A program made the position numbers and the translations under genes. Of a DNA stretch of 12,601 nucleotides, positions 2,630-11,035 are shown piece after piece. Origin of the DNA: Oscillospiraceae bacterium (GTDB lineage Bacteria > Bacillota > Clostridia > Oscillospirales > Oscillospiraceae); contig JAFXBH010000031.1 in the NCBI GenBank assembly GCA_017521875.1, forward strand, positions 1-12,601. Direction: 5' to 3'. The notes under the pieces were generated by a model that saw only the letters and a program-made list of their open reading frames with translations, was not told the DNA's origin and ran no database searches. How positions within the stretch are numbered: position 1 is the first letter of the stretch; each line of letters begins with the position of its first letter.

Positions 2630-2928
2630 TGAAGCATTTCACATCAGAAGAAAAATACAAAATCATCAAGCAAACCGCCGATGGTTCTATGATAGGAATA
2701 CATAATTTTGGACTTTTGCACGAAATAGCCGATGCTTTGGATATGAAAAACAATTCGGGAATATTCTTGCAGTCAATAAGTCATAGGATTACAAGAATTA
2801 TGCGAGAGTTGATAAAAAATGGCTATCCAATAAAGGAGTATCGCATTAAATGTTGCAGTTGGAGCGAAAAAGAAACATGGCACCCTTGTTTCAAGATAGA
2901 AGAAAGGAGTAACAACAATGCAGAATGA
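2629..2928 (+). CDS. Hypothetical protein, possible winged-helix fold, 99 aa
   Basis: The start is ATG 2629, overlapping the upstream TGA by one base, with GGTGGGTGAT as a weak ribosome site. The sequence begins MKHFTSEEKYKIIKQTADGS and includes GLLHEIADALDMKNN, then a helix with ITRIMRELIKNGYPIKEY and a C-terminal strand-like part with CCSWSEKETWHPCF. The layout (helices followed by a basic hairpin) would fit a small winged helix, but no motif proves DNA binding. Comparable proteins appear to be common in phages of gut Clostridia, without an assigned function. Composition is AT-rich like its neighbours, and its last 11 bases overlap the next gene. Confidence 0.55.
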   Translation: MKHFTSEEKYKIIKQTADGSMIGIHNFGLLHEIADALDMKNNSGIFLQSISHRITRIMRELIKNGYPIKEYRIKCCSWSEKETWHPCFKIEERSNNNAE

Positions 2929-3118
2929 GTTGAAGCCTTGCCCGTTTTGTGGGGCTAAATCAGAATTATGTATGGAACCGTGGGATTTTGAAAAAAGAGA
3001 ACCTGCAAAGGATGCTAAATATGTTGTTGAGTGCGGAGAATGTCTTTCGCGTACAGATACTTACAATTCCGAAGACGAAGCGATCGAAGCGTGGAACAGG
3101 AGGACTGACAATGATTAA
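2918..3118 (+). CDS. Lar-like zinc-ribbon protein (restriction alleviation family)
   Basis: The 66-residue product starts at ATG 2918 with AAAGGAG eight bases upstream. It has the Lar-family layout: ELKPCPFCG at the N-terminus (C8, C11), a second pair at C39-G-E-C42, and the closing signature EDEAIEAWNRR. Lar of the Rac prophage reduces type I restriction by modulating the host restriction-modification enzyme. Most short phage members share only this zinc-ribbon shell, so anti-restriction activity is a guess here. Position in a run of small accessory genes fits an early host-takeover role. It overlaps the genes on both sides by 8 to 11 bases. Confidence 0.75.
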   Translation: MQNELKPCPFCGAKSELCMEPWDFEKREPAKDAKYVVECGECLSRTDTYNSEDEAIEAWNRRTDND

Positions 3119-3576: not shown

Positions 3577-3898
3577 ATATATTGAGCTGGAAGAATTGAA
3601 AAAGGTTTTGTCAAACGAAGCGGTACATTGCTTAACTTTTCAAAAGAAAGGCGAAGCGAGAGGACTTGTAAAAGCAAAAGAGATTGTTAGCAAACTACCC
3701 GCCGCCGATGTGGTTGAGGTTGTAAGGTGTAAGGATTGCATTCATTGGGGCGGTGAATATGATACAAATGAATGTTCTTTAATTACACAATTAGCAAATC
3801 CCGATTATTGGTTAAAAACTGCACCCGATGATTTTTGCAGTAGCGGTGTAAGAAAGGATGAAAAAGATGATCATTTACATAGCAGGTCCGATCAGTAA
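3563..3898 (+). CDS. Cys-rich phage accessory protein (CKDC zinc-ribbon type), 111 aa
   Basis: Start taken at ATG 3563 (AAGGGA six bases upstream); GTG 3560 and ATG 3569 are alternatives. The N-terminal half is helical (YIELEELKKVL, then LVKAKEIVSKLPAADVVEVV). The C-terminal half has C56-K-D-C59, C71 and C92 in DDFCSSG, a likely zinc site. Proteins with ADVVEVVRCKDCxHW and a DFCSxG ending are widespread in gut phages, with unknown function. Family members usually stop shortly after DFCS.GxRKDE; this one reads on for about ten residues (DDHLHSRSDQ) into the start of the next gene, suggesting its original stop was lost at a recombination junction. Confidence 0.65.
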   Translation: MEMAEYIELEELKKVLSNEAVHCLTFQKKGEARGLVKAKEIVSKLPAADVVEVVRCKDCIHWGGEYDTNECSLITQLANPDYWLKTAPDDFCSSGVRKDEKDDHLHSRSDQ

Positions 3899-4160
3899 AG
3901 ATCCGGACTATAAAGAAAAGTTTGGCGCGGCAGAATGTGCGCTGACAAAAATGGGGCATAGCGTGATCAATCCGGCGTTCTTGCCGACGGATCTGGGCGA
4001 TTGCACCGATTATATGAAATTATGTTTCCCGATGATTGATGCTGCGGATGCGGTGGTGATGCTGGACGATTGGGAAGAAAGTTGCGGTGCTTGCAGGGAA
4101 TGGGGATACGCGATGGCGCAGGATAAAATTGTGCTGCCATTCAATGCCTTTGTTTTTTGA
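3867..4160 (+). CDS. DUF4406 protein (nucleoside-2-deoxyribosyltransferase-like fold)
   Basis: Start taken at ATG 3867, nine bases after AGAAAGG; an in-frame ATG at 3858 directly abuts that site and is less likely. The 97-residue product begins MIIYIAGPISKDPDYKEKF, the classic DUF4406 opening, then GHSVINPAF, and later DAADAVVMLDDWEESCGACR, whose end matches the family segment with an acidic catalytic position. The fold is that of nucleoside deoxyribosyltransferases, which move deoxyribose between bases, so a part in nucleotide salvage or modified-nucleotide supply is plausible, but no activity is proven for these short phage forms. Composition returns to a higher GC level at this gene. Confidence 0.78.
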   Translation: MIIYIAGPISKDPDYKEKFGAAECALTKMGHSVINPAFLPTDLGDCTDYMKLCFPMIDAADAVVMLDDWEESCGACREWGYAMAQDKIVLPFNAFVF

Positions 4161-4739: not shown

Positions 4740-5210
4740 ATGAATTGGGAAGCAATCAAGACCGAGTACATCACTACGGATACCAGTTATCGCAAGTTGA
4801 GTGAAAAATACAGCATTAGCCGAGCCACGATAACACTTCGAGCCAAGCGCGAGGGGTGGGTTGCATTGAAAAACCAATTTAATGCTGAAACTATGGCAAA
4901 AACTCAAAATGCAATCGTTAAAGATCGTGTAAAGAGAGCAGACAGGCTATACAGGGCGGCGGACAAACTTCTTGATATGATCGAGAAGCGAATGGATGCA
5001 CCTGAATTTATCGCATATGACACACAATCCTACCGTCACATTGCGTCTTGCCTTAAGGATATCAAGGATATTCATTCCATCAAGACCGATGCCGAGATGA
5101 GAGAGCAAGAAGCGAGGATCAAAAACCTTGAGAAGCAGGCGGAGCAGGAGGATACGGCAAGAGAGGTCACCGTTACCATAGCGGGAGGTGAGGACTCTTG
5201 GCAAAAGTAA
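4740..5210 (+). CDS. terS: Terminase small subunit
   Basis: Start taken at ATG 4740 (156 residues), five bases after GGAAAGGAG; an in-frame ATG at 4668 lies inside the terminator tail and adds an unrelated N-terminus. The N-terminal helix-turn-helix (residues about 8-40: YITTDTSYRKLSEKYSISRA then a basic KREGW) matches small terminases that recognise the phage packaging site. A helical oligomerisation region follows, and the end is a charged coiled coil (EQEARIKNLEKQAEQED) for contact with the large subunit. It lies directly before the large subunit and overlaps it by 13 bases. It is the first gene of the head operon. Confidence 0.85.
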   Translation: MNWEAIKTEYITTDTSYRKLSEKYSISRATITLRAKREGWVALKNQFNAETMAKTQNAIVKDRVKRADRLYRAADKLLDMIEKRMDAPEFIAYDTQSYRHIASCLKDIKDIHSIKTDAEMREQEARIKNLEKQAEQEDTAREVTVTIAGGEDSWQK

Positions 5211-6625
5211 ACATCGATATTCCAGAACCGAATGAAAAGCAGAAACTCTTCCTTGCGGATCAGCATCGCCATGTTGCATACGGTGGCGCCAGAGGAGGCG
5301 GTAAGAGTTGGGCGGTCAGAGTTAAGGCACTTCTTCTTTGTTTGGCGTGGGCAGGGATCAAGATATTGATCGTGCGTAAGACCTATAAGGAACTTACAAA
5401 CAACCATATAAATCCTCTTAAACGGATGATTCCGAAAGAGGTGGCGCGATACAACAAGACCGAGAAGGTGTTTACCTTTGCCAATGGATCTACCATATGG
5501 TTTGGATACTGCGCCAGCGACAGCGACCTTGATCAGTACCAAGGCGCGGAGTATGATGTCATCTTCTTTGACGAGGCTACGCAACTGCAGGAGGAATGGC
5601 TGAAGAAGATCAACCTCGCGGTTCGTGAACCGAATGGGCTGCCGAAGAGAACCTATTACACCTGCAACCCCGGCGGAGTCTCTCACAATTACATTAAGCG
5701 GCTTTTTATTGAGCGCAAATATGAGGGCGCAGAGAAGCCCGAAAACTACAACTTCACGCAGGCTCTTGTTACTGACAACAAGGTGCTGATGGAAATCCAA
5801 CCCGAATACCAAGCGGAGTTGATGGCTTTACCACCGAAATTGAGAGAGGCTTGGCTATACGGCAGTTGGGACATCTTTGAAGGGCAGTTCTTCGAGGATT
5901 TCTATGACCGTGAGGAGCATTATTCCGATCGGCAATGGACTCATGTCATTGAACCCTTCGAGATCCCTGAAGGGTGGAAAATCTACCGATCCTTCGACTG
6001 GGGATACAATAAGCCGTTCTCCTGCGGATGGTGGGCGGTGGACTATGATGGCGTGGTGTATCGCATCCTTGAGTTATATGGATGTACGCAGACTCCAAAC
6101 GAAGGTGTCAAATGGACTCCTCCAAAGGTATTCTCGGAGATCCACCGCATCGAGACTGAGCATCGATGGCTGAAGGGCAAGAACATCATCGGTATAGCCG
6201 ACCCTGCGATATGGGATGCAGAGACCGGTGAGTCCATTGCGGATGTTGCGGCAAAGCATCAAGTGTATTTCCAACCGGGCGATCACAAGAGAATCCCCGG
6301 ATGGATGCAGATGCACTACCGATTTGCATTTGATGAGAACGGATTTCCGATGATGTATGTCTTCAACAACTGCAAGGCATTTATCAGAACGATACCGTTG
6401 CTCCAATATGATGAGCATAAACCTGAGGATCTGGACACCGATGGCGAGGATCATGTGGCGGATGAAGTTCGCTATTTCTGCATGAGCAGACCCATCAAGC
6501 CGAGGCAGGCGGCGGTACCCGATGAGTACCATAACAACCCGCTGAACATCTTCCTGGATATCCCCAAGGAAGATATCATGGCTAAGACAAGCAGACCCAA
6601 GATGGAGATTATAGGAGGCAAGTAA
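5198..6625 (+). CDS. terL: Terminase large subunit (packaging ATPase-nuclease)
   Basis: The 475-residue motor pumps DNA into proheads through the portal and cuts concatemers. TTG 5198 is used as start because GGGAGGTGAGG lies just upstream and the protein begins near the adenine-binding region. Walker A is GGARGGGKS (29-37). Walker B is DVIFFDE (120-126) with catalytic Glu126, followed by a coupling motif in TYYTCNPGG. The C-terminal RNase H-like nuclease shows three acidic positions: Asp267 in FDWGY, Asp335 in IADPA and Asp422 in ADEVRYF. Length is normal. It overlaps the small subunit by 13 bases and shares one base with the portal start (TAATG), so the three are probably translationally coupled. 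Confidence 0.96.
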   Translation: MAKVNIDIPEPNEKQKLFLADQHRHVAYGGARGGGKSWAVRVKALLLCLAWAGIKILIVRKTYKELTNNHINPLKRMIPKEVARYNKTEKVFTFANGSTIWFGYCASDSDLDQYQGAEYDVIFFDEATQLQEEWLKKINLAVREPNGLPKRTYYTCNPGGVSHNYIKRLFIERKYEGAEKPENYNFTQALVTDNKVLMEIQPEYQAELMALPPKLREAWLYGSWDIFEGQFFEDFYDREEHYSDRQWTHVIEPFEIPEGWKIYRSFDWGYNKPFSCGWWAVDYDGVVYRILELYGCTQTPNEGVKWTPPKVFSEIHRIETEHRWLKGKNIIGIADPAIWDAETGESIADVAAKHQVYFQPGDHKRIPGWMQMHYRFAFDENGFPMMYVFNNCKAFIRTIPLLQYDEHKPEDLDTDGEDHVADEVRYFCMSRPIKPRQAAVPDEYHNNPLNIFLDIPKEDIMAKTSRPKMEIIGGK

Positions 6626-8646
6626 TGGGGTTATTTGACCGTAAGAAAAAAGAGAATATAGACCCTGCACAGAGACAGCCGACCAACGAAGAGCAGATGA
6701 TGCGTAGACAGTCTGCTCCTCGCCCCGCGATGGAGGATGCCGCAAGAGAAGCCATTGCAAAGTCTATGGCGGCAAATGACGGCGCCGTGGATGGTTTCAA
6801 GGTTCTCGCGCAGGTGATCGGCAAAGAGCAGATTCATGCGGCGACTCAAACGCTGATGAAATACAAACAAGGCAAAGCCAATCTGGAGCAGAGAATCGTT
6901 GACAATGAGCAATGGTATAAACTCCGCCATTGGGAGTGCATGAGAGACAAGAAGCAGGTGGTTCAACCGACCTCTGCTTGGCTTTTCAACTGCATTGCCA
7001 ATAAACACGCCGATGCGATGGACAATTTCCCCTCCCCGAACATTCTCCCCAGAGAAGAGGGGGACAAGCCTGAGGCGGAGCGGTTGACTTCCATTGTGCC
7101 AGTCATTCTGGATCAGTGCGATTATGAGCAGGTGTACTCCGATGTATGGATGTATAAACTCAAGAGCGGCACCGGTGTATACGGTGTCTTCTGGGATAAG
7201 ACCAAACTGAATGGCTTGGGCGATATCTCCATTAAGAGAGTGGATCTGATTGATCTCTTTTGGGAGTCGGGCATCACCGACATTCAAAAATCCCGCCATG
7301 TCTTCCATGTGAAGTTAGTGGACAACGACCTTCTGATCAACGAGTATCCGCAGTTGCAGGGCAAACTCGGCACCTCCACTATTGATGTTGCCAAGTATGT
7401 CTACGATGATTCGGTGGACACAAGCAATAAGTCTGTTGTGGTGGATTGGTACTACAAGAAGGCTTCGGGCAGCAAGACGGTGCTTCATTATTGCAAGTTT
7501 GTCAACGATGAGGTGCTGTTTGCCACCGAGAACGATCCCAAGTTTGCGGAGCGTGGATGGTATGACCACGGCGAGTATCCCTTCATCTTCGATGTCCTCT
7601 ATCCTGTGGAGGGTACTCCTGCAGGATTCGGATATATCGATATCGGCAAGGATGCTCAAGCATATATCGACAGAGGCAATCAAGCCATTATGCAGAATAT
7701 GCTTGCCAATGCCAAACCGAGACACTTCATCCGTACCGAGGGCACCGTAAATGAAACGGAGTATGCCGATATGACCAAGGATTTTGTCCATGTGGATGGA
7801 AACCTCGGTCAAGACAGCATCCTTCCCATTCAGGGCAAGCCTCTCAGCAATGTCTATGTTGAGGTCATCCACGATAAGGTCGATGAACTCAAGGAGACCA
7901 CCGGAAACCGAGACATCTCCACCGGCGGCACCACTTCGGGTGTTACTGCGGCATCCGCGATTGCGGCGATGCAGGAGGCAGGCTCCAAACTCTCCAGAGA
8001 CAATAACAAGGCTTCCTACCGAGCCTTCCGCAGAATGTGTTTGATGATCATCGAATTGATCCGACAGTTCTATGACCTTCCGAGATGTTTCCGCATTATG
8101 GGCGAGAATGGTGCTGCACAATTCGTTCAATACAACAACGCAGGGATTCAGCCGCAGGCGCAGGGCGTGGAGATGGGTGTCGATATGGGATACCGCAAGC
8201 CGCTCTTCGATATTGAGGTAACTGCTCAAAAGCAGTCTCCCTACAGCAAGATGGCACAGAACGAACTTGCGCTTCAGTTCTTCAACGCAGGGTTCTTCAA
8301 TCCGCAGATGGCGGATCAGGCTCTCGCTTGCATTGATATGATGGACTTCGACCGAAAAGAGTTCATTATGCAGAAGATCGCCCAGAACGGCGGGATGTAT
8401 CAGCAGATGCTTATGATGCAACAGCAGATGCTGAGGATGGCGCAGATGCTGGATCGGTATGAAGGCACCAACCTTGCCGATCAGATTGCCGCAGGAATCA
8501 CCGGCGGTACCCCTGCCGCCCCTGCTCAAGGTGGCACGGCGGGAGGCGCGGCCAAGACCGAGGCACTCGGCGGAGAGGGTGGCGGTGAATCCACCCACAC
8601 CCAAAAGGCGAGACAGCGGGTGGCGGAGTCCACCGATCCCACCTAA
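6625..8646 (+). CDS. Portal protein, P22-like
   Basis: The 673-residue product starts at ATG 6625 after ATAGGAGGC. It forms the dodecameric DNA gate at one capsid vertex, bound by the terminase during packaging. The size, the NEQWYKLRHWECMR region, the DNFPSPNILPRE segment (about 133-144), GTGVYGVFWDK (182-192) and the helical NRDISTGGTTSGVTAASAIA part match long portals of the P22 type. The C-terminus is Met and Gln rich (MYQQMLMMQQQMLRMAQML), like a barrel or coiled-coil crown, then ends in a Gly/Ala-rich tail. A very long antisense frame lies across it, but that is a codon-bias shadow. The next gene follows after nine bases. Confidence 0.93.
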   Translation: MGLFDRKKKENIDPAQRQPTNEEQMMRRQSAPRPAMEDAAREAIAKSMAANDGAVDGFKVLAQVIGKEQIHAATQTLMKYKQGKANLEQRIVDNEQWYKLRHWECMRDKKQVVQPTSAWLFNCIANKHADAMDNFPSPNILPREEGDKPEAERLTSIVPVILDQCDYEQVYSDVWMYKLKSGTGVYGVFWDKTKLNGLGDISIKRVDLIDLFWESGITDIQKSRHVFHVKLVDNDLLINEYPQLQGKLGTSTIDVAKYVYDDSVDTSNKSVVVDWYYKKASGSKTVLHYCKFVNDEVLFATENDPKFAERGWYDHGEYPFIFDVLYPVEGTPAGFGYIDIGKDAQAYIDRGNQAIMQNMLANAKPRHFIRTEGTVNETEYADMTKDFVHVDGNLGQDSILPIQGKPLSNVYVEVIHDKVDELKETTGNRDISTGGTTSGVTAASAIAAMQEAGSKLSRDNNKASYRAFRRMCLMIIELIRQFYDLPRCFRIMGENGAAQFVQYNNAGIQPQAQGVEMGVDMGYRKPLFDIEVTAQKQSPYSKMAQNELALQFFNAGFFNPQMADQALACIDMMDFDRKEFIMQKIAQNGGMYQQMLMMQQQMLRMAQMLDRYEGTNLADQIAAGITGGTPAAPAQGGTAGGAAKTEALGGEGGGESTHTQKARQRVAESTDPT

Positions 8647-8655
8647 GGAGGATAT

Positions 8656-9000
8656 ATGGTCAAGGTAAGATTCGAGCATAGCGAGGATGGAAAGTCCCTC
8701 ATCCTCACCGCAAAAGGGCATTCCGAACAGGCGGACATCGGGCATGACATCGTATGTTCGTCTGTATCGATCCTCACTTACACCATCGCGCAGGTTGTTA
8801 AGACGATGCACGATCAGGGTAAGTTGAAGAAGAAACCCACGATTCGCTTGGAGAGCGGGGATGCCGTTGTCGTATGCAAGCCGAACAAGGCGTACTTCAA
8901 CGAGGCATATCACGCATTCTGCGTGGTGGAGACCGGCTATAACCTGCTCCATCACAACTATCCAAGGTTCGTGGATCTTAAAAAGTTTGGTGAGGCGTAA
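8656..9000 (+). CDS. prp: Prp-family cysteine protease (L27-processing type), probable prohead maturation protease
   Basis: The 114-residue product starts at ATG 8656 after AAGGAGG. It matches Prp (YsxB), the Firmicutes protease that trims the N-terminal extension of ribosomal protein L27: a first strand VKVRFEHSEDGKSLILTAKG, then GH(S) with His22, and GHDIVCSSVS with Cys34, the same positions as the catalytic pair of Staphylococcus aureus Prp, as I recall them. Length (about 105-115) is normal. It sits between portal and scaffold, the usual place for a prohead protease. The scaffold and capsid proteins just downstream both carry NLQxFA motifs, so they are probably its substrates. It might also act on host L27. 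Confidence 0.92.
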   Translation: MVKVRFEHSEDGKSLILTAKGHSEQADIGHDIVCSSVSILTYTIAQVVKTMHDQGKLKKKPTIRLESGDAVVVCKPNKAYFNEAYHAFCVVETGYNLLHHNYPRFVDLKKFGEA

Positions 9001-9055
9001 GCCTTAAATATAAACCAAGGAGTCGCTCCCCTTAAGAGCAGAAAGGAAAATGCTT

Positions 9056-9988
9056 ATGGAAAGCAAAAACATTCTCCTGCGACTCAATCTCCAGATGTTT
9101 GCCGAAGGCGGCGGTGGAGATGGTGGCACAGCCGCAGGAGCGGGCGAAACAGGGGTGGCCGCCGCACCTCAAGCAAAGGGCGTAAAATCCAATCCGCTTG
9201 CCGATGTCAAGTATGGCATCCAGGAGGATGGTGTGCAGGGCGCCGATGCACAGGAAACTACCGTTGAGACTCCTCCCGATCGCAACGCTGAGTTCGAGAA
9301 ACTCATCAAAGGGGAATACAAAGACCTTTTTGATGCTCGGATGCAGGACACGATCCAAAAGAGACTCAAAGGCACCAAGGAGACCGTTGAGAAGTATGAG
9401 GCTCTCTCTCCGACCCTTGAATTGCTCTCCCGAAAGTATGGAGTTGATGCAAGCGACATCAACGCTCTGAACAAGGCCATCGAAGAGGATGATTCCTACT
9501 ACGAGGAAGAAGCCTTGGAAAAGGGCATCACCGTACAGCAACTCAAGGAAATACGAAGGATGGAACGAGAAAATGCCGACCTGAAGAGACAGATGCGGGC
9601 GCAATCTGCGAAAGAGAATGCGGACCGGTTATATGCATCTTGGATGGAACAGGCGGAAAAGACCAAGGGAGTCTACCCCACCTTCAACCTGCAGGCGGAG
9701 ATGGCCAACCCTCAATTTGTGAATCTGTTGCGTAACAATGTGGATGTGCGGACGGCTTATGAGGTTCTGCACAAGGATGAGATCATCCCTGCGGCCATGC
9801 AGTTTACTGCCAAGACCGTAGAACAGAAACTTACCAACAAGATCATTGCCAACGGTGCGAGACCGTCTGAGAACGGTACCTCTTCCCAAAGTGCGGCGGT
9901 AGTAAAGAGTGATGTGTCACAACTCTCCAAGGCGGATAGAGAAGAAATCATCCGCAGAGTTCAACGAGGAGAGAAGATCCGTTTCTGA
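9056..9988 (+). CDS. Capsid scaffolding protein with N-terminal Prp cleavage motif
   Basis: Start taken at ATG 9056 (310 residues), nine bases after GAAAGG; the in-frame ATG at 9050 is too close to that site. The N-terminus reads MESKNILLRLNLQMFAEGGG, with an LNLQMFA motif like the L27 processing site, predicting a cut after Phe15. A flexible Gly/Ala-rich stretch follows, then charged helical segments including a coiled coil (EIRRMERENADLKRQMRAQS) and a basic C-terminus (EEIIRRVQRGEKIRF), the usual capsid-binding end of a scaffold. Assignment rests on position before the capsid gene, composition and the shared motif. It would line the prohead interior and leave before or during packaging. Confidence 0.82.
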   Translation: MESKNILLRLNLQMFAEGGGGDGGTAAGAGETGVAAAPQAKGVKSNPLADVKYGIQEDGVQGADAQETTVETPPDRNAEFEKLIKGEYKDLFDARMQDTIQKRLKGTKETVEKYEALSPTLELLSRKYGVDASDINALNKAIEEDDSYYEEEALEKGITVQQLKEIRRMERENADLKRQMRAQSAKENADRLYASWMEQAEKTKGVYPTFNLQAEMANPQFVNLLRNNVDVRTAYEVLHKDEIIPAAMQFTAKTVEQKLTNKIIANGARPSENGTSSQSAAVVKSDVSQLSKADREEIIRRVQRGEKIRF

Positions 9989-9995
9989 TAACCGA

Positions 9996-10033
9996 TTTGA
10001 TCTCCTTGCCCAATAACAGAAAAGGAGATTAAA
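9996..10033 (+). promoter_or_regulatory. Hairpin that would sequester the major capsid gene ribosome binding site
   Basis: TTTGATCTCCTT (9996-10007) pairs with AAGGAGATTAAA (10022-10033) over 12 bp with one G-U pair, leaving a 14-base loop. The right arm contains the AAAGGAG ribosome site of the capsid gene (ATG 10037). The left arm starts eight bases after the scaffold stop, so a ribosome finishing the scaffold would overlap its base and could open it. This suggests coupled or RNase-tuned capsid translation; the pairing is seen, the function is inferred. Confidence 0.55.
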
Positions 10034-10036
10034 AAC

Positions 10037-11035
10037 ATGAACGCTATTTACACCATTAACCTGCAGTTGTTTGCAGGTACCCTGAACACCCAAACCACTC
10101 TTCTGAACGGCGAAGGCAACAACCTTTCCCCTGAGATGAAGACCTTCTACGACATGACCCTTATCGATGAGGCTTCTGCTCAGTTGGTTCACGATCAGTT
10201 CGGTCAGAAGAGACCTATCCCCGCCAACGGCGGCAAGCGCATTGAGTTCCGCAAGTTCGACAACCTGCCCGATGCGATGACTCCGCTGACTGAAGGCGTT
10301 ACCCCCGATGGCAACAAACTGAATGTTTCTACCATCGAGGCTACCGTTGATCAGTACGGCGACTACATCGTGCAGTCCGATGTTCTGGAACTGACCTCCA
10401 TCGACAACACCATCGTTGAGGCTACCAAGATTCTTGGTAAGCAGGCAGGCTCCACTCTGGATGCCGTTGTCCGTGGTGTCCTGGCGGCAGGTACCAATGT
10501 TCTGTTCAGCGGCGGCAAGAACAAGCGTGGCGATTTGACCGCTGCCGACACCCTGAGTGTTCAGGATGTCAAGAAGGCTGTTGCCATCTTGAGAGCGAAT
10601 AACGCTCCCACCATCAACGGCGACTATGTCGCTATCATTCATCCCTATGCCGCCTACGATCTCATGAGCGATGAGAAGTGGGTTGAGGCGCATAAGTATG
10701 CAAAACCCGAAAACCTGTATACCGGCGAGATCGGTAAGATTGCAGGCGTCCGCTTTGTGGAGACCTCCAACGCTACCGTTTACGAAGGCGCTGCAGGCAA
10801 TGTCTTCGGTACCATCATCCTCGGCGAGGGTGCTTACGGCGTTACCGAGATCACCGGCGGTGGTTTGCAGACCATCGTTAAGCAGAAGGGTTCTGCGGGC
10901 ACCGGCGACCCCTTGGATCAGAGATCCAGTGTGGGTTGGAAGGCTCTGAAGACTGCCGAAAGACTTGTGGAGAACTATATGATCCGCATCGAGTCCATCG
11001 GCGAATTCTCCGCCAATGTCACGCCCAATGCCTAA
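10037..11035 (+). CDS. Major capsid protein, N4-gp56 family, with N-terminal Prp cleavage motif
   Basis: The 332-residue product starts at ATG 10037, nine bases after AAAGGAG. After the opening MNAIYTINLQLFAG it shows the N4-gp56 capsid pattern: MTLIDEASAQLVHDQFGQKR, GGKRIEFRKFDNLP, LTEGVTPDGNKLN, and the long helix region around STLDAVVRGVLAAGTN, then YVAIIHPYAAYDLMSD and a C-terminal ENYMIRIESI strand. It forms the HK97-fold shell. The NLQLFA motif predicts removal of 12 residues by cutting between Phe12 and Ala13. Codon use is strongly biased, as expected for the most abundant virion protein. It is flanked by hairpins on both sides. Confidence 0.95.
   Translation: MNAIYTINLQLFAGTLNTQTTLLNGEGNNLSPEMKTFYDMTLIDEASAQLVHDQFGQKRPIPANGGKRIEFRKFDNLPDAMTPLTEGVTPDGNKLNVSTIEATVDQYGDYIVQSDVLELTSIDNTIVEATKILGKQAGSTLDAVVRGVLAAGTNVLFSGGKNKRGDLTAADTLSVQDVKKAVAILRANNAPTINGDYVAIIHPYAAYDLMSDEKWVEAHKYAKPENLYTGEIGKIAGVRFVETSNATVYEGAAGNVFGTIILGEGAYGVTEITGGGLQTIVKQKGSAGTGDPLDQRSSVGWKALKTAERLVENYMIRIESIGEFSANVTPNA

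Follow-up and report, generated by a model that had tools for sequence, protein, structure and literature searches.

The window considered here, a stretch of 12,601 nucleotides from an Oscillospiraceae bacterium, is an entire contig (G000:C82; JAFXBH010000031.1) of a 1.66-Mb assembly that is 82% complete. It covers the head genes of a podovirus-type phage in a bacterial genome assembly, and it carries a gene for the cysteine protease Prp beside genes for a scaffold protein (SP) and a major capsid protein (CP) that have sites resembling that of ribosomal protein L27. On the + strand, the gene order is terminase large subunit (TerL; 5198..6625; Terminase_6N, E 2e-10; phrog_2, E 1e-45), P22/podovirus-type portal (6625..8646; P22_portal, E 9e-33; phrog_156, E 5e-84), Prp (8656..9000, 114 amino acids), SP (9050..9988, with an alternative ATG start at 9056), CP (10037..11035; phrog_1357, E 6e-90; Phage_capsid_3/4) and downstream genes. 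SP is recognized by its position between the portal and CP genes and by its match to phrog_13908 (E 7e-87), a family that itself carries no function label; it also matches the head scaffolding family phrog_2932 weakly (E 0.002). No classical prohead protease family is among the matches of the eight window proteins scanned.

An initial annotation of this DNA had placed a Prp-like protein with His22 and Cys34 between portal and scaffold, and this assignment is confirmed: by Pfam match, predicted fold and catalytic residues, the window Prp is genuine. It scores 48.4 bits against Peptidase_Prp (PF04327), for which the curated cut-off is 27; the His22 codon is at 8719..8721 and the Cys34 codon at 8755..8757. 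Residues G21, G29, D31 and S38, whose roles have been described for Staphylococcus aureus Prp (SaPrp; PMC9405229), are also present. An AlphaFold2 model has a mean pLDDT (predicted local distance difference test score) of 92.8, with 63 across residues 21-30, and its confident structure matches are to Prp only, including 7kld, which is SaPrp with a covalently linked product. Among 120 distinct phage Prps, 118 retain the aligned His and Cys, and the exceptions (L014 and L114) are fragments as extracted; both residues are also retained by all 31 sequences on the host side, of which L189 belongs to another prophage. The window gene is not located between rplU and rpmA, where a ribosomal (chromosomal) Prp gene would lie; it is in the head cluster near portal and SP, the position of a prohead protease. 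One phage record (MT835662.1, L003) has a diverged Prp with a His-Cys spacing of 15, and its capsid protein starts with KLNLFD.

The predicted cut sites are RLNLQMF/AEGG in SP (NLQMF/A at 9086..9103, cut between 9100 and 9101) and TINLQLF/AGT in CP (NLQLF/A at 10058..10075, cut between 10072 and 10073), and both are conserved in relatives. Among the + strand open reading frames (ORFs) of the window, a scan for [ND]LQx[FLM]A close to a start codon finds the motif only in SP and CP, in line with what the initial annotation had stated for the head proteins, and the position of the CP site agrees with its prediction of Ala13 as the mature start. Thus, as in phage 80alpha, an L27-like site stands at the N-terminus of both proteins. 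To score such sites in relatives, a single matrix was used that was built after the motifs were known, with a threshold of at least 8.5. In the dereplicated family, this threshold is reached by 104 of 123 CP and 98 of 123 SP N-termini, compared with 0.65% (CP) and 0.51% (SP) of shuffled sequences; of 281 N-termini from the remaining ORFs of these loci, one reaches it. Because the matrix scores far exceed those of shuffles and other ORFs, the sites on SP and CP are beyond chance. The literal motif [ND][LIM]Qx[FL][AGS] is found in 68 of 123 CPs and 59 of 123 SPs, and in both proteins of 45 of 123 phages. The P1 Phe is retained in nearly all recognizable sites, even those without the P3 Gln.

The capsid protein is a better bait for relatives than Prp is: with the window Prp as sole query, IMG/VR yielded no relative and a phage collection one record at E 0.01. 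Capsid relatives comprise 70 loci from IMG/VR and the best 80 of 330 from GTDB genomes. The GTDB records are mostly titled as Clostridia, Oscillospiraceae or Ruminococcaceae metagenome-assembled genomes (MAGs), and most of the named genomes with phages of this family are Clostridia. Among loci with enough upstream DNA to be scored (those whose capsid ORF starts less than 2000 bases from the locus end were left out), Prp is present in 118 of 129, the window included, and in 101 of 109 after dereplication. The count leaves out Bacillus phage Pascal and Paenibacillus phage API480 (L005, L006), in which the capsid protein is homologous yet the stretch fetched has no Prp and no site. Prp and SP are both in view in 127 loci, of which 125 have the order Prp, SP, CP and two are fusions. 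One prophage of this Clostridia-associated family (L125) is in a bin titled Muribaculaceae MAG, a Bacteroidota title that likely reflects binning contamination.

A survey with Prps of the window's family, covering the best 80 of at least 279 relatives, is no test of generality, because 66 of the 81 loci analyzed (5 added isolates included) belong to that same family. A survey of siphophages, covering the best 80 of 360 relatives, does test how general the linkage is: the capsid model of the window's family matches 0 of its 87 loci. Cultured siphophages of Oenococcus, Enterococcus, Lactococcus, Latilactobacillus, Dorea and Brochothrix have Prp behind the portal or among head genes. Phages phiS13, phiFL3A, PLgT-1, TP712 and BL3 carry sites on both SP and CP; by the strict motif, the Latilactobacillus and Dorea phages have a site on one protein. 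Among 78 loci with at least 3.6 kb of downstream sequence, a site-bearing ORF occurs in 77, and 68 have two or more. The 50 distinct siphophage Prps, which are mutually related, have a site-bearing ORF downstream in 50 of 50 cases, two or more in 43, and upstream in none. The linkage of Prp genes with NLQxFA motifs, for which the initial annotation had suggested a survey, is found both here and in the window's family, and the Prp-SP-CP unit is real and general. As the initial annotation had cautioned, existing annotation already covers phage Prps: they are named 'peptidase' both in PHROGs and in the RefSeq records of phiS13, phiFL3A, PLgT-1 and BL3. Several loci (L315, L317, L377, L389 and others) have a third site-bearing ORF of ~140-150 amino acids, ~4.6-5.1 kb downstream of Prp, that is possibly a tail protein. 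An L27-like motif is mentioned on the phi13 major tail protein (PMC5744158).

We assign a probability of roughly 85% to the reading that the window Prp is the phage's own capsid-maturation protease, which would cut between Phe and Ala in the L27-like NLQxF/A sites of SP and CP. The specificity of the window Prp for NLQxF/A is predicted from sequence, and the proposed mechanism is well supported by comparison. Prp would remove 12 N-terminal residues from CP and 15 or 17 from SP. Cutting would presumably take place during procapsid assembly; we infer its occurrence, timing and purpose alike. If the parallel with 80alpha holds, folding or assembly may depend on the scaffold extension until its removal.

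The sites on the two proteins of one phage resemble each other. With phages set aside when either site scored below 6, which keeps 112 of 123, the SP site equals the CP site of its own phage at 4.53 of 6 positions on average. When CP sites are permuted among relatives, the value is 3.71-4.26 of 6 (p 0.0005 at every cluster depth, including 36 close CP clusters). In some lineages, NLQLF/A is replaced in both proteins by sites such as DLRLF/D or LNLF/D. Such sites go with a changed His-Cys loop: of 16 phages whose loop is non-canonical, 11 have an acidic residue or Asn at P1' of SP or CP, versus 5 of the 84 with a canonical loop (Fisher 1e-7 by a naive test). In SaPrp, the P3 Gln bonds to Gly29 and Asp31 (PMC9405229). 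For 100 phages kept of 106 with a usable Prp, again with sites below 6 set aside, the P3 Gln is found in both sites of 78 of 90 that keep Gly29 and Asp31 versus 2 of 10 that have lost either (Fisher 2e-5, likewise naive). By these naive counts, where the substrate-clamping loop of Prp is changed, the P3 Gln is usually lost from both cut sites, a trend that is strong here and not significant on the tree.

In some relatives, Prp and SP are encoded as a single frame that carries a site where the two join. These include Faecalibacterium prausnitzii APC923/61-1 (L161, L412), the fecal phage record MT836159 (L004) and a Eubacterium MAG (L413). One joint reads QEKMVELQLF/AEGG; the Eubacterium fusion has an altered loop, the joint SVDLCRF/DGE and the capsid site VNLRQF/DDM. 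Searching proteins with the L161 fusion yields 6703 matches; of the 120 listed, which are close relatives and hence not independent, 118 retain the joint site and 119 have the spacing GHx11C. When the fused protein was used as query in a scan, a single viral contig was recovered. In the fused relatives, the protease would ride into the procapsid on SP and then free itself, and an in-frame ATG just ahead of the site could also give free scaffold. The fusion lends indirect support to the idea that Prp may act on head proteins inside the procapsid.

In Faecalibacterium, the fusion is widespread without being universal. Of 31 genomes, 30 match the fusion query, and the same 30 have Prp, G049 and G081 with two copies and the other 28 with one. 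The reading frame around Prp is at least 310 residues long, the length of a scaffold fusion, in 24 of the 30, and only 126-187 residues in six (G087, G088, G089, G093, G095 and G097); in the first five of these it spans 126-151 amino acids, and Prp is probably unfused there. L27 was matched in 27 Faecalibacterium genomes and read in 24, and it is short in all 24. Twenty loci were picked by hand and fetched, 19 of them with long reading frames. Prp and SP share one frame in 19 of the 20, the frame being interrupted in L431 (G097), and all 20 have a joint site with an ATG just ahead. One of these fused loci, L424, has genes with matches to TerL, portal, Prp plus phrog_13908, capsid, phrog_12105 and an internal virion protein, and all of these families except the last also occur in the window.

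Particles of ~40 nm with ~9 kb of DNA have been described for F. prausnitzii ATCC 27766, and liquid chromatography-mass spectrometry found the capsid and portal proteins of the gene transfer agent FpGTA I (PMC12946183). Judged by distribution and gene content, the fused Faecalibacterium locus is probably FpGTA I. Neither 'protease' nor 'Prp' occurs in the main text of the FpGTA I paper as searched (PMC12946183). On balance, and with considerable reserve, we favor a wider reading in which Prp is the maturation protease of a whole class of Clostridia podoviruses and of FpGTA I. In the latter it would mostly be fused to the scaffold, enter the procapsid with SP, release itself at the junctional DLQLF/A and trim CP. 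It is the only kind of Prp found in Faecalibacterium and would have no extended L27 to cut, so that enzyme and sites can evolve together; several phage lineages would have lost the P3-Gln rule, which holds bacterial Prp to L27.

The L27 proteins of host genomes bear on why a phage would carry Prp. Fifty host genomes were searched and the start of L27 was read in 41, of which 27 have the long form and 14 the short form. Thirteen of the 14 short-L27 hosts (start MAHKKG or MASKKG) lack a Prp beside L27; they include isolates of Gallibacter, Cuneatibacter and Faecalibacterium, and all 13 prophages fetched from them carry Prp. In this part of the host range, phage Prp can therefore have no L27 role. 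A MAG titled Candidatus Treponema caballi (G008, the genome of L095; L234) has a short L27 (MGRKKGG) with an adjacent Prp and a family prophage in the same bin, which reflects either a Prp role other than on L27 or a binning error. Five loci without Prp have a readable host L27 (L104, L126, L132, L141 and L157); all five are in long-L27 hosts with Prp beside L27, and four of these genomes hold further Prps besides that copy. The proposition that Prp-less prophages occur only in long-L27 hosts is consistent with all five, a sample too small to serve as proof. The window's assembly has its own chromosomal Prp behind rplU on C103, where the contig stops before rpmA, and L27 was not found in this assembly; in Escherichia coli, searched as a control, no Prp was detected. 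L27 is present in 11 of 12 relatives of the same genus, and all 11 have the long form MLKIGIQ[FY]FAH.

Host Prp cuts the capsid and scaffold proteins of 80alpha (PMC5744158), and by this precedent the host enzyme might also cut SP and CP of the window phage, with the phage Prp redundant or an unrelated gene. The site-bearing, Prp-less loci in hosts with a long L27 and an adjacent Prp agree with such a division of labor. This account is nevertheless unlikely, given that prophages of the 13 short-L27 hosts without an adjacent Prp carry the gene, that the dyad of phage Prps shows no decay, and that fused and co-varying forms exist. We consider it very improbable that the phage enzyme serves the ribosome by processing L27 during infection. 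It belongs to the same enzyme family and the window's host genus has a long L27, yet phage Prp persists without an L27 extension (in the 13 named host genomes and wherever the Faecalibacterium L27 was read), and it is linked to head genes that bear sites. The NLQxFA leader could instead be an uncut assembly or folding signal that Prp binds as a chaperone. The SP leader of 80alpha is required intact and cutting of it is not (PMC5744158), as this idea would have it, but it accounts poorly for the conservation of His and Cys, for a P1 Phe that outlasts the P3 Gln and for the location of the site at the Prp-SP joint in fusions, and we give it little credence.

Several observations weigh against the reading of Prp as the phage's own maturation protease. 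Cutting of either protein is dispensable in 80alpha, where the function of Prp cutting is called unclear (PMC5744158), and the maturation step may thus not be essential. The window's host genus has a long L27 and its assembly a chromosomal Prp, so host Prp could act on this phage. No Prp was detected in 8 of 109 dereplicated scorable loci, most of which have at least one site; host Prp may serve these, or Prp could lie elsewhere in some, because the upstream DNA there is not a portal gene. Two prophages of short-L27 hosts (L106 and L123) have sites that the matrix does not recognize, L003 has no recognizable scaffold site despite its diverged Prp, and the Prp of L115 scores 26.1 bits, slightly below the Pfam cut-off. 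When co-variation of SP with CP sites and of Prp with sites is assessed by sign tests on the capsid tree, it is not significant, with too few independent changes, and for the loop and the P3 Gln one of two directions leans not even the expected way.

The initial annotation had further proposed a complete maturation unit of the phage's own in which a ribosome-processing enzyme took over the role of prohead protease. The unit is upheld and extended, being linked widely, also in short-L27 hosts, and in part fused. The direction of the change is not borne out: the Prp tree (147 rows, 117 columns), which is unrooted and has 76 of 144 inner branches open, gives no order of roles. A clade with support of 96 contains 28 of 29 host Prps and the siphophage Prps of phiFL3A, PLgT-1 and TP712, which may therefore derive from hosts. 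The fourth siphophage Prp in the tree, from Dorea phage DO134P1, falls outside this clade. Prps of the window's family are also outside, with the window Prp adjoining L010, and thus show no sign of recent capture from a host. On this evidence, the window's family of Prps looks like an older phage lineage.

Among known systems, lambda C/Nu3 combines protease and scaffold in one frame with an internal scaffold start, and the protease-scaffold enzymes of lambda and P2 belong to families unrelated to Prp. The fused relatives of the window phage likewise have one frame and a possible internal scaffold start, but their protease is Prp with an L27-like site at the joint. A P2 protease-scaffold gene is mentioned elsewhere (PMC6893505). 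The host Prp (YsxB, MEROPS C108) shares its fold, dyad, G21/G29/D31/S38 and predicted site with the window Prp, which differs in gene location, away from rplU and rpmA, and in its separate tree branch. In the siphophages phiFL3A, phiS13, PLgT-1, TP712 and BL3, the 'peptidase' is likewise a Prp right after the portal with NLQxFA on SP and CP; in contrast to the window, CP is off the model of the window's family, and three of the four Prps in the tree are within the host clade. For Streptococcus phage Cp-1, we take the protease to be orf13, which scores 18.5 bits against PF04327, below the cut-off of 27, and matches phrog_4478 at E 0.0013. A 2025 review assigns the Cp-1 protease, which trims the phage head protein, to MEROPS C108, clan CR (PMC12445089). 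Cp-1 thus resembles the window phage in encoding a C108-family protease that trims the major head protein, but this protein has no NLQxFA in its first 100 residues, and orf13 is not between portal and SP. In 80alpha, both SP and CP have an L27-like Prp site as in the window (PMC5744158, PMC9405229); that phage has no protease of its own, whereas the window phage encodes Prp beside its substrates, with a host copy also present.

In the literature searched, no description of the linked unit or of the fusion was found; the Prp papers of 2015, 2017 and 2022 and the 1998 Cp-1 paper may mention phage Prp beside sites. A Shewanella phage paper discusses Prps under ORF22, and the capsid gene there is ORF63 (PMC10846135). 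If the reading of Prp as a phage maturation protease is correct, phages encode both enzyme and substrates, also where the ribosomal substrate is absent, and the role of the cut is therefore testable apart from an essential host gene. For the published gene transfer agent of F. prausnitzii, the unit also offers a candidate maturation protease. Phage Prps and their sites form a natural series for the study of specificity in Prp, a proposed antibiotic target (PMC9405229).

A record titled 'Enterococcus phage Efs 1-1-1' (OR846610.1, L083) contains rplU, prp and rpmA, with an L27 that starts MLLTMNLQLFAHKKG, and is probably host DNA. Upstream of the packaging genes, the window encodes DUF1064 (312-758), a dUTPase (1878-2294), a Lar restriction-alleviation protein (2918-3118) and DUF4406 (3858-4160). 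An ORF at 1108-1851 has no Pfam match at E 0.01; by eye, we take it to be like a phage protein of the 3'-phosphoadenosine 5'-phosphosulfate (PAPS)-reductase-like type.

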